Source: a virus
Direction: 5' to 3' (one strand)
DNA: 41,291 nucleotides
IMG/VR virus record: IMGVR_UViG_3300009509_000045
Span: 1 to 41,291 of that record
Shown: positions 26,680 to 31,969 of the stretch, one piece after another
Layout of the letters: each line of letters begins with the position of its first letter
How positions within the stretch are numbered: the first letter of the stretch is position 1
Position numbers and translations under genes: made by a program
Notes under the pieces: model-generated
What the model saw: only the letters and a program-made list of their open reading frames with translations
What the model was told of the DNA's origin: nothing
Databases searched by the model: none

Positions 26680-26712
26680 CGCGTACCCTTTTTGTAAATA
26701 AATGAATTTTTG

Positions 26713-26737
26713 GCTACACTATGTAGCACCGTTTTTT
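26713..26737 (+). terminator. terminator-like hairpin on the + strand
   Basis: GCTACA-CTA-TGTAGC (26713-26727), four bases, then six T (26732-26737). Only on the + strand does the T run follow the hairpin, although all nearby genes are on the - strand. Confidence 0.5.
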
Positions 26738-26746
26738 AATCCGTGT

Positions 26747-26784
26747 AAAGCCTTGTTTTCCGTCCAAAGTAGCAAGGCTTTTTT
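26747..26784 (+). terminator. intrinsic terminator on the + strand
   Basis: AAAGCCTTG (26747-26755) and CAAGGCTTT (26773-26781) form a perfect 9-base stem with a 17-base loop, and three more T follow. The orientation is rightward. On the - strand the stem also exists but is followed by only three U. It may stop rightward read-through before the immunity region, or attenuate the leftward leader. Confidence 0.65.
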
Positions 26785-27007
26785 AAATGCTCCAATGAAC
26801 ACTTAAAAAAATAAAACTCAAATAAACTCAAATTTTCATTTTTGCGTTAAGCTCTTTAGTGAGTGGTAAAACTCAGGTAGTAAAGTTTTAAAAAGGGAGA
26901 ACATAAATAAAATTCAGGAGTCTACCGTCTAAAACCACTCGCTAAAAAGCTCGTCTCTTAACAATGCTAAGTTAAATATCATCGTAGCGACTTGCTACAG
27001 TTGAATT

Positions 27008-27055
27008 GTACATAATGTACTATAAAATTAAACTTAAAAAAAGTACCTTATGTAC
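27008..27055 (-). promoter_or_regulatory. leftward operators OL (two GTAC-N5-GTAC sites)
   Basis: GTACATAATGTAC at 27008-27020, a perfect palindrome, and GTACCTTATGTAC at 27043-27055 (11 of 13 symmetric), centre to centre 35 bases. The first is identical to the site at 28051-28063 before the Cro-like gene, so one repressor likely binds both. A leftward -10 may lie in or beside the first site (CATTAT or TATAGT). Confidence 0.7.
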
Positions 27056-27169
27056 TATTTTGTTAAAAATTGTATAAATTGTATAGGAGGGTATGGGACA
27101 GCATAGGAAATGCTTACTATATATATGCGATAAATTGTAAAGTTGTAATTTTGTGTAGTGTTTAGGAGC

Positions 27170-27201
27170 TTCGTACTACGTTCGTACTACGGTAGTACGA
27201 A
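27170..27201. repeat. TTCGTACTACG repeats, two direct and one inverted
   Basis: TTCGTACTACG at 27170-27180 and 27181-27191, then the inverted GTAGTACGAA at 27192-27201. The last two make CGTACTAC-G-GTAGTACG, a 17-base palindrome. Related words (ACGTACGG, AGTAGTACG) follow to 27223. It lies downstream of the repressor gene; perhaps a binding site for a second regulator, or an RNA hairpin at the repressor mRNA end. Confidence 0.65.
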
Positions 27202-27284
27202 AGACGTACGGTAAGTAGTACGTCGCCTATCTTATCTATATATCTACTATCTAATATCTAATAAAGAGAAAAAAATTTAAAAAT

Positions 27285-27962
27285 TCATCGACCTATAAGA
27301 GAGAGCCGGCTTTGTCTATTGTCGAACGTAATCTTATTGATACCTACCACCTTAGCCATAACTAGGTCGTCGTATCTATCGTCGTCCATACGTATAGTCG
27401 TCGTCTTAAAGTCGTCGGTAATCTTGTACGGTATTAACTGTATGATATTGGCCTCGTTATCTATCCAAAGCACCTTTACGCAGTTCTCGCCGTTAATCTT
27501 GTAGTGTACTAGGTCTCCGCTTACCGGCTCTACTCTTGGATTACAGATAATCTCGTCCCTAGTCTCTATCTCCGGAGACATAGAGCTACCGTTCGCTATA
27601 AGACAGTACATATCGCTATTAAAGTCCACACCGTTATAGTACGCGGTCTTTTTTACAGAGTATAGGAAATTACTAGGCTTGTCGCCACAGGATACGAGAC
27701 CTATCACCGGAACGGTTACGACGGCCTTAGTCTCTATCCCTAGTAGAAAGTCGGTAGTAACGTCCAATACGTCGGCCATATACCCTATAAGCACAGGGTT
27801 AGGAGTCCTATCATTATTTCGATACTTAGCGATACTCTCTTTACTTATTTTGTATCCGAAAGTATCTTGCAGTCTTTCAGATAGTCCCTTATTCGTTACT
27901 CTCTTCTCTCTCATTAGCGTGTCTAGCGCGTCTCCGAACATAATAAAGTCCTTAGTAGTCAT
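27285..27962 (-). CDS. CI/LexA-like repressor with S24 peptidase domain, 225 aa
   Basis: The lysogeny repressor. The frame is open upstream to 28193 but that stretch is operator DNA; ATG 27962 has AAAGGG upstream and begins the conserved part. HTH at residues about 20-60, a Cys92-Gly93 bond as the likely self-cleavage site (SCGD), Ser127 in NGSSMSP and Lys163 in CVKVL as the catalytic dyad. RecA-stimulated self-cleavage and SOS induction are expected from the family. It faces the Cro-like gene across the operators. Confidence 0.9.
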   Translation of the reverse strand: MTTKDFIMFGDALDTLMREKRVTNKGLSERLQDTFGYKISKESIAKYRNNDRTPNPVLIGYMADVLDVTTDFLLGIETKAVVTVPVIGLVSCGDKPSNFLYSVKKTAYYNGVDFNSDMYCLIANGSSMSPEIETRDEIICNPRVEPVSGDLVHYKINGENCVKVLWIDNEANIIQLIPYKITDDFKTTTIRMDDDRYDDLVMAKVVGINKITFDNRQSRLSLIGR

Positions 27963-27994
27963 TTTTTCCCTTTCATAGAATACAAATTTTAAAA

Positions 27995-28063
27995 GTACAA
28001 AATGTATAAAAAATACAAAAAAGTACAAGTTTTTAAAGTTATGTTTAAGAGTACATAATGTAC
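27995..28063. promoter_or_regulatory. rightward operators OR and divergent promoters
   Basis: Between the repressor and Cro-like start codons. GTACATAATGTAC (28051-28063) is identical to the left operator; GTACAAAATGTAT (27995-28007) is a degenerate copy, and AGTACAAG near 28022 a half site. The rightward -10 is probably CATAAT (28054-28059) inside the operator, so bound repressor would cover it. A leftward promoter for the repressor may be TTGTAC with TACATT in the A/T-rich middle. Confidence 0.65.
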
Positions 28064-28064
28064 A

Positions 28065-28325
28065 ATGCTTGCTATGGACGGAAAACAAATTAAAAACATA
28101 CTCAAGACAGAGGGATACTCCGAGAGTATGATAGCCTCTATAATGGTCGGGAGACGGAAACCTAATGCGGACTTGCGCTACAAGTTGGAGCAAAAGTTTT
28201 CTATCCCTTTTGGAGCGTGGGTAGACATAAAAACTTACCTACAAGAGAATAGTAACATTAAAAATAGTAATACATCAAGATTACAAGAGGCATACGATGG
28301 AAAAACAAAAGTACGACAATCCTAA
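28065..28325 (+). CDS. Cro-like HTH protein, 83-86 aa
   Basis: Small XRE/Cro-type DNA-binding protein: helix-turn-helix about residues 16-38 (YSESMIASIMVGRRKPNADL) and the ending IPFGAW. Start ATG 28065 or 28074; neither has a ribosome site, and the -10 inside the operator predicts a transcript starting almost at the ATG, so a leaderless mRNA is likely. Opposed to the repressor gene and first in the rightward operon, it should repress the repressor promoter. Confidence 0.75.
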   Translation: MLAMDGKQIKNILKTEGYSESMIASIMVGRRKPNADLRYKLEQKFSIPFGAWVDIKTYLQENSNIKNSNTSRLQEAYDGKTKVRQS

Positions 28326-28494
28326 GACGATTAAGTTTAGCGACAGAGAGCTAGATAAGTTACAGACGATTACGGACGATAGGCACTTCGACAGCGACGC
28401 AGAGGCGCAGAGATTTTGCTTAAACTTCACGTATGCCCTACTAGAGAAAAACCTACTAGCTAGTACGATGGCTAGGTTACTAGAGGATATATAG
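28297..28494 (+). CDS. ribbon-helix-helix-like small protein, 65 aa
   Basis: Starts inside the Cro-like gene (29-base overlap) with AAGAGG upstream. KTIKFSDRELDKL can form a beta strand plus helix and SDAEAQRFCLNFTYALLEK a second helix, the plan of ribbon-helix-helix repressors/activators; inferred by pattern only. It is a candidate for the factor that reads the twin P1/P2 operators or the late-promoter motif. Confidence 0.6.
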   Translation: MEKQKYDNPKTIKFSDRELDKLQTITDDRHFDSDAEAQRFCLNFTYALLEKNLLASTMARLLEDI

Positions 28495-28500
28495 CAAAAC

Positions 28501-28721
28501 GGTAGCAGTAGCTACCCTCTAGCGTCTTACGAGGCGTTAAGGGGTGGCTATGGTCGGGTACGGCAAATACTAACGACCATAGCTTTAAACACGCGTTACA
28601 CTAAGGTAACTTGAAATTTTACCATAGTGTTATTTAAAGAGCCTATTTAAAACCTCTCTCGCTCTTTGACTCCCATAGTTTTAGGGGAGAGGTGTTTTAA
28701 GTGGCTTTAAATCTATGGGAG
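28501..28721 (+). ncRNA. structured leader: row of hairpins and a possible SD-masking switch
   Basis: The gap between 28494 and 28730 holds consecutive inverted repeats: GGTAGC-AGTA-GCTACC (28501-28516); a wobble-containing stem around 28515-28544; GCTATGGTCG/CGACCATAGC (28547-28556, 28574-28583, perfect); ACACTAAGGTAA/TTACCATAGTGT (28598-28609, 28619-28630, 11 of 12); AAAACCTCTC (28649-28658) with GAGAGGTGTTTT (28687-28698). CCCATAG (28672-28678) can pair with CTATGGG (28713-28719), which holds the start of the ribosome site of the 28730 gene. No coding frame fits. Confidence 0.6.
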
Positions 28722-28729
28722 ATTTTATT

Positions 28730-28939
28730 ATGAGCAAAAGAACAAATACACAGCATAGCAATATCAAAAAGTATTTAGAGGACGGAAACGCTATCACGCC
28801 TATAGAGGCGCTTAATATGTTCGGGTGTTTTAGGCTTTCGGCGGTTATTTTCAACCTTAAAGAGCAAGGCCTAGACATATCTACCACTATGGTAAAAGAC
28901 GGCGACAAAAGATACGCCTCCTATAAGGCGGTCGCGTAA
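28730..28939 (+). CDS. phage helix-turn-helix domain protein, 69 aa
   Basis: ATG 28730 chosen over 28715 because GGGAG (28717-28721) lies 8 bases upstream. The sequence NAITPIEALNMFGCFRLSAV, then LKEQGLDISTTMV and RYASYK, matches the small winged-helix proteins (HTH_39-like) found before phage replication genes, residues about 18-66. Likely a replication or transcription accessory factor. Its ribosome site can be masked by an upstream CCCATAG. Confidence 0.75.
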   Translation: MSKRTNTQHSNIKKYLEDGNAITPIEALNMFGCFRLSAVIFNLKEQGLDISTTMVKDGDKRYASYKAVA

Positions 28940-31726: not shown

Positions 31727-31969
31727 ATGATGAACGGAATAGCAAAAGAGCCTAAATACAAATTCGAGCCTAAAGAGGTCAATAGCGTTAAGGATAAAAA
31801 CGGGGTTTTCCTCTCTATTGGTAACAGGGTGAAAGACGCTAAGGGTAAAGAGTGGAAGCTAGACAATATCGGAGGCGTCTCTATGCTCGTCTATCCGGTT
31901 GTAGGAGCGGTAAAAAAGACTCAGGTACTTAGTAAAGTGGACTTTAAAGAGTACGAAAAGGTCGCATAA
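31727..31969 (+). CDS. small beta-rich hypothetical protein, 80 aa
   Basis: AAGGAGAT lies before ATG 31727. The middle (GVFLSIGNRVKDAKGKEWKL) has the pattern of a small SH3-like or KOW-like barrel. Its stop overlaps the next start. Function unknown. Confidence 0.7.
   Translation: MMNGIAKEPKYKFEPKEVNSVKDKNGVFLSIGNRVKDAKGKEWKLDNIGGVSMLVYPVVGAVKKTQVLSKVDFKEYEKVA

Follow-up and report, generated by a model that had tools for sequence, protein, structure and literature searches.

The window analysed here, i.e., the whole stretch of DNA, is the record of a virus, 41,291 bases long, which, judged by its sequence, is a temperate phage with relatives among Campylobacterota phages. A Campylobacterota host is suggested by its named relatives, Sulfurimonas phage SNW-1 and Nitratiruptor phages NrS-2/3. 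Besides an integrase gene, the window contains a set of immunity and regulatory genes and, behind an intergenic gap, a replication block (Table 1). The 65-aa gene that precedes the gap has a 44% identical counterpart in a related contig, L083, where it lies at the equivalent place just 5′ of a minimal form of the pseudoknot described below.

Table 1. Genes and predicted RNA elements around the intergenic leader of the window
Feature	Position	Strand	Details
Integrase gene	20986		
S24-type CI-like repressor gene	27285-28064	-	Pfam Peptidase_S24
Cro-like gene	28065		
65-aa gene	28297-28494		phrog_30638; directly before the gap
Intergenic leader, complete	28495-28729	+	235 nt, from the stop of the 28297 gene to the start of the 28730 gene; z -6.2; equivalent position in L047, L080, L082 and SNW-1
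Hairpin H1	28501-28516	+	GGTAGC-AGTA-GCTACC; L047 has a hairpin of other sequence at the equivalent place
Hairpin H2	about 28516-28544	+	CTCTAGCGTC..GGCGTTAAGGG; computed fold
Hairpin H3	28547-28583	+	GCTATGGTCG/CGACCATAGC; 10 perfect pairs
Core hairpin	28598-28609/28619-28630	+	ACACTAAGGTAA/TTACCATAGTGT; outer ACACU/AGUGU, inner GGUAA/UUACC, internal loop
S1 5′ arm	28647-28660	+	TTAAAACCTCTCTC; pseudoknot stem
S2 5′ strand	28670-28678	+	CTCCCATAG; anti-SD, within the S1 loop
S1 3′ arm	28687-28700	+	GAGAGGTGTTTTAA; pseudoknot stem
S2 3′ strand	28713-28721	+	CTATGGGAG; contains the SD GGGAG, 28717-28721
Winged helix-turn-helix gene, 69 aa, HTH_39	28730-28939	+	Pfam PF14090, E 2e-11; proposed first controlled gene, head of the replication block
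Gene with weak replication-initiator match	28939		
DnaB-type ATPase gene	29900		
Gene with product SSB-like on reading	31074		
Terminase gene	farther downstream than 31074		

The leftward gap on the other side of the repressor gene has features of its own. It holds a long imperfect hairpin at 26841-26961 (TTAAGCTCTTTAGTGAGTGG..CCACTCGCTAAAAAGCTC), and the region 26690-27000 folds with a z of about -4 on both strands, unlike the right-hand element. Two terminator-like hairpins with T runs, one identified by program and the other by eye, lie at 26713-26785 in the + direction, opposing the leftward operon. A cluster of short direct and inverted repeats around GTACTACG/CGTAGTAC lies at 27160-27230, with the repressor gene on one side and the leftward operon on the other; it is possibly an operator or promoter array.

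A DNA search of phages and plasmids with the right-hand gap gave no homolog. Queries with the helicase, the replication protein and the 28297 gene in viral and genome contigs yielded no relatives with this neighbourhood, and a terminase query of genome contigs yielded none. A terminase search led to the contig L047, in which a repressor gene, cro, a gene of the CII family, a gap of 272 nt and a gene for a winged-HTH protein are ordered as in the window. About 50 bases of the two gaps are alignable, better than in 200 of 200 shuffles. Repressor alignment added L080, L082, L083 and L079, and the CII gene of L082 led to SNW-1 and NrS-2/3. The layout and position of the leader are as in the window in L047, L080, L082 and SNW-1, and also in L083 and NrS-2/3. 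Relatives of the HTH_39 gene (41 loci) occur in other contexts and were used as controls.

The RNA of the gap is strongly structured, with a minimum free energy of -85.9 kcal/mol against -58.0 ± 4.5 for 200 dinucleotide shuffles, none of which folded as well; both strands of the gap fold well. The leaders of L047, SNW-1 and L080 also have low z values (-5.2, -5.6 and -4.8, respectively), and that of L082 folds weakly (-1.7). The row of hairpins noticed here in the preliminary description is present as H1, H2, H3 and S1 (AAAACCTCTC/GAGAGGTGTTTT). Hairpin H3 has counterparts with an AUGG/CCAU core in L080 (GCTATGGG/CCCATAGC), L082 (CGATGGT/ACCATCG) and SNW-1 (AGATGG/CCATCT), the core being common across the relatives and the flanking pairs changed. 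No intrinsic terminator or attenuator (a G+C-rich hairpin with a T run) is found on the + strand of 28495-28729, and matches to sigma-70-like promoters near the gap are not above chance. An apparent enrichment of CTATGG (57 against 14) was rejected, as a fourth-order model gives 48 and composition thus explains the count; the three copies of CCATAG are therefore no evidence by themselves.

At the 3′ end of the leader, the pairing of CCCATAG (28672) with CTATGGG (28713) proposed earlier is present and had been understated. It extends to a helix, S2, of nine perfect pairs that covers the whole GGGAG ribosome site (SD) of the 28730 gene. S2 interleaves with S1, as had also been recognised, and the topology is thus that of a true H-type pseudoknot. 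The nested fold of the window leader has an energy of -85.6, and the pseudoknot form one of -77.2 - 13.6 = -90.8 before the pseudoknot penalty, which was not computed; the two are close. The nested fold also hides the SD, through the 3′ arm of the core hairpin (probability unpaired 0.08); masking in the window can therefore do without the pseudoknot. In L082, SNW-1 and L083, the SD is 0.95-0.99 unpaired in the nested fold; it is left open there, and S2 would close it. The modelled energetics are compatible with a switchable RNA, which is not to say that they prove switching.

An SD-region pseudoknot heading replication genes is found in six further temperate phages, namely the IMG/VR contigs L047, L080, L082 and L083, Sulfurimonas SNW-1 and Nitratiruptor NrS-2/3. 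Five leaders (those of the window, L047, L080, L082 and SNW-1) are extended: hairpins occupying roughly 110 to 190 nt follow the upstream stop codon before the pseudoknot is reached. In these, the S1 hairpin lies within the last 110 nt or so before the start codon, and its loop forms pairs with a strand that holds the SD or directly adjoins it. The pseudoknot alone is kept in NrS-2/3 and L083, where S1 begins about 8 nt past the upstream stop codon. The letters of S2 differ among the phages (TTCCTATTACA/TGTAATAGGAA in SNW-1, CCTAGTTC/GAACTAGG in L080, and, with G-U pairs, TGGTTCTTG/CAGGAACCA in L082 and TGGTTGGTG/TACCGACCA in L047), except for one pair of phages, NrS-2 (GTTGGTCCTT/AAGGACCAAC) and L083 (TTGGTCCTT/AAGGACCAA). 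These two have common S2 letters and different S1 stems that still pair, which is a compensatory pattern. Likewise, the S2 strands differ and yet pair across the relatives. The SD lies inside S2 in the window, L080, SNW-1, L083 and NrS-2, and just outside, abutting it, in L047 and L082.

Several statistics support this recurrence, on an evidence base of seven phages, four of them with the core hairpin and none very close. In the five extended leaders, the best partner of each loop is the downstream strand of that very leader (combined p about 2e-8). As a duplex of loop and downstream strand, S2 of the window has p = 0.0004, and that of L082 alone is weak (p 0.06). A free automated search for S1 and S2 in the 110 nt before the start gave scores better than all 160 shuffles in 5/5 extended leaders (Fisher 1.9e-7), with another interleaved pairing preferred in L047; in that leader, few bases link S1 to the following strand, so S1 must partly open. 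Because raw energy scores mislead for G+C-rich controls, a strict shuffle-normalised test was used, with gap-free helices, the SD region fixed in the shuffles and a score of -26 or better. With a criterion of SD overlap that was chosen after the window and L080 had been seen, this test gave 10 SD-touching pseudoknots against 1.0 expected in 489 leaders of related phages, compared with 8 against 7.0 in 703 leaders of control phages; L082 just misses the line (-25.4). Plain MAFFT alignment of the whole element misaligned the pseudoknot.

In a scan of the leaders of related phages, the known sites ranked near the top, and NrS-2/3 and L083 were added, together with the SNW-1 CII gene, L044 4382 and L079 8338. 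The SNW-1 leader at 31734(-) (L084:3880-3991), before the CII gene, is a second SD-touching candidate in that phage, with S1 ATATTTAGAGATG/CATCTCTAAGTAT and S2 CTCCTT/AAGGAG. At L044:4302-4381, an S2 of CCTCCTAAAG/CTTTAGGAGG covers the entire SD of a gene for a 94-aa product, with an SSB-like gene following it. The leaders of L079 8338(+) and NrS-4 (L096) 8955(-) are further strict candidates over the SD. At the place equivalent to that of the window element, no such pseudoknot is present in L079 or NrS-4. In NrS-4, alternative G-rich/C-rich hairpins replace it at L096:14126-14191, where ACCCCTT/AAGGGGG could hide the SD; the gene behind this hairpin is related to the one downstream of the L083 pseudoknot.

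The core hairpin is common to the window, L047, L082 and SNW-1, and its apical loop (CUUGAAAUU) is conserved, being close to CUUGRAAUU among the relatives. The GTTAC-ACTAAG-GTAAC stem of the preliminary description belongs here: it exists, one base away from the position given (28595-28610, not 28596-28611), and is better read as part of this larger conserved hairpin (28598-28630). A covariance model, R1, built from the window, L082 and SNW-1, independently detects L047 where expected (E 0.002 in the L047 record) and finds no core hairpin in L080, L083 or L079. In the three-row core alignment, 87.5% of cells are paired against at most 68% when the rows are slid, with too few pairs for significance alone. 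Among 28 viral contigs with the exact core motif, L047 is the single homolog, the others having it within unrelated sequence. In the window, the ACCATAG of the core 3′ arm can pair with the SD stretch as well; core hairpin, pseudoknot and SD are therefore rivals for one set of letters.

The genes downstream of the element encode an HTH_39-like protein (the window, PF14090), DnaB-N, a 43-aa product before DnaB, DUF6291 and an unknown product, and each heads a replication block. The element therefore seems to regulate the block rather than one protein family; none of these products can be the regulator common to all, and autoregulation by the element's own downstream product is unlikely. The 43-aa ORF of SNW-1 is unannotated (L084:5005-5136; record 30721-30590, - strand); it lies just after the pseudoknot and overlaps the dnaB start by one base, at a site where the deposited record leaves 352 nt empty.

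Taken together, the gap is best explained as a cis-acting RNA leader between the immunity and regulatory genes (CI-like repressor, Cro-like and 28297) and the replication block, with a probability of about two in three for the explanation as a whole. The structure of this leader is well supported, its fold, position and SD overlap being shown by sequence and covariation; in the cell, the pseudoknot would form and probably masks the ribosome site of the gene that heads the replication block until it is opened. A pseudoknot or switch able to mask this site had already been suggested, and the recurrence in seven phages of an interleaved pairing that covers or adjoins the SD, with mostly unrelated letters, supports that suggestion. 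The refuting conditions named in the preliminary description, a lack of compensatory changes or an equally good fold of shuffled sequence, were checked, and neither was found. Since related phages keep the fold with quite different letters, the element is probably a genuine translation switch, so far without a name. A putative direction of control, trigger and effect on later genes can be outlined. With S2 holding the SD, ribosomes would be kept off the first gene as long as the pseudoknot stands. The core hairpin would be the likely receptor of a factor (a protein of the phage or the host, or a small ligand) that, on binding, may shift the RNA between masked and open states. In the minimal forms of NrS-2/3 and L083, a ribosome terminating on the upstream gene could open S1 and thereby couple the translation of both genes. 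As a tentative extension, against which the odds lie, the leaders may form an undescribed family of RNA sensors (core hairpin plus SD pseudoknot) in temperate Campylobacterota phages, with a phage protein, host factor or metabolite at the core loop opening or closing the pseudoknot and thus deciding on the replication block and lytic growth.

Four other explanations were weighed. The pseudoknot might be a translational activator, in which pairing beside the SD frees it from stronger competitors (the core hairpin's ACCATAG, for example) or brings in ribosomes, and in which an antisense RNA or factor blocks formation, as in IncI-alpha repZ. The abutting SD of L047 and L082, the replication genes downstream (as with repZ) and the nested fold of the window, where the SD is masked by the core 3′ arm and an alternative pairing could matter, fit this proposal. 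However, an SD inside S2, as in the other phages, should block initiation rather than help it, and where the nested fold leaves the SD open, closure would come from S2; activation is thus unlikely. A device for translational coupling only, opening the downstream SD only when ribosomes have translated the upstream gene to its end and needing no ligand or regulator, would suit NrS-2/3 and L083, whose S1 starts within reach of the terminating ribosome. It is quite unlikely as a general explanation, as coupling needs none of the hairpins that precede the pseudoknot in the five extended leaders, four of which have the core hairpin.

A processive antitermination element of the nut or put kind, raised in the preliminary description, would act on RNA polymerase so that terminators in the replication operon are passed, the SD pairing being incidental. 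This is very improbable. A processed RNA, likewise raised there, is not supported either. The position after cro and before the replication genes is that of nutR/putR, a boxA-like word (CGCTCTTTGACT) occurs at 28660, and the downstream genes vary among the phages. Yet the leftward gap (26680-27284) contains no similar element, though put has left and right copies (PMC9378689). There are 10 boxA-like words with at most 2 mismatches in the window, where chance would give 4.8 ± 2.2, and they are scattered; there is no Rfam match, and the repeated contact of S2 with the SD is left unexplained. Finally, a DNA-level element (a replication origin or operator array with inverted repeats that look like RNA hairpins by accident) adjoining the replication genes would account for good folding on both strands, but is hardly credible, as the G-U pairs in S2 of L047 and L082, the interleaved topology and the repeated SD contact fit RNA and not cruciforms, and strict pseudoknots are in excess in the leaders of related phages.

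The favoured reading, an RNA leader that masks the ribosome site, is of interest because most of what is known of RNA control over the choice between lysis and lysogeny comes from a few enterobacterial phages. In the present case, the immunity and replication genes of several phages related to vent Campylobacterota phages, including the published SNW-1 and NrS-2/3, have between them a structured leader that carries a pseudoknot at the ribosome site and offers a directly testable translation switch. It may represent a new phage RNA family, absent from Rfam 15: neither the window nor the relatives' elements match any family above the gathering threshold (SAM-II, SAM/SAH and preQ1-II included), and a lax threshold gives chance miRNA matches alone (E about 4). 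When the papers on SNW-1 and the Nitratiruptor phages were searched by keyword, no such RNA element came up, and a wider literature search of partial coverage found no such RNA described.

Among known systems, HK022 putR and lambda nutR are RNA elements at the equivalent position of the early rightward operon, as a comparison with the lambda map indicates. HK022 put has about 70 nt, two stem-loops and left and right copies (PMC9378689), whereas the present element has 235 nt, a pseudoknot, SD contact and no left copy, and is not of the put type. Nor is it of the type of lambda nut, which has boxA/boxB near cro, a leftward copy and an N-type protein: the boxA-like word is near chance, left and right gaps are not similar, and no N-like gene was recognised among the window genes searched. 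In T4, T2 and RB69, a pseudoknot upstream of gene 32, likewise a replication gene, serves translation control and was described in 2010 as perhaps the only viral example in translational autoregulation (PMC3014915). That pseudoknot, at 67 nt upstream, is where binding by the product of gene 32 itself nucleates, whereas the present one contains or abuts the SD and is followed by genes unrelated to each other, so that regulation by the product of the downstream gene is unlikely.

In repZ, the pseudoknot activates translation and an antisense RNA opposes it. The IncI-alpha, IncB and IncL/M plasmid rep genes (repZ of ColIb-P9), treated in works listed in PMC10724649, have a polycistronic leader in which a pseudoknot adjoins the SD of a replication gene, an arrangement like the present one. 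Activation by the pseudoknot and an opposing antisense RNA would both be hypothetical for the window element. The SAM-II and preQ1-II riboswitches are H-type pseudoknots that sequester the SD, the loop being paired with the 3′ strand. The SAM/SAH riboswitch also has a hairpin and a second helix, in which the loop pairs with the SD-containing 3′ strand (PMC7367207). These riboswitches differ from the present element in that the latter spans 100-235 nt, mostly with upstream hairpins, and lies in a phage replication leader rather than before a metabolic gene, with no ligand known. They share with it the helix between a hairpin loop and a 3′ strand holding the SD. Indeed, the predicted structure of the window leader is that of an SD-sequestering H-type pseudoknot, in which the loop pairs with a 3′ strand over or next to the SD and this pairing is kept through compensatory changes.
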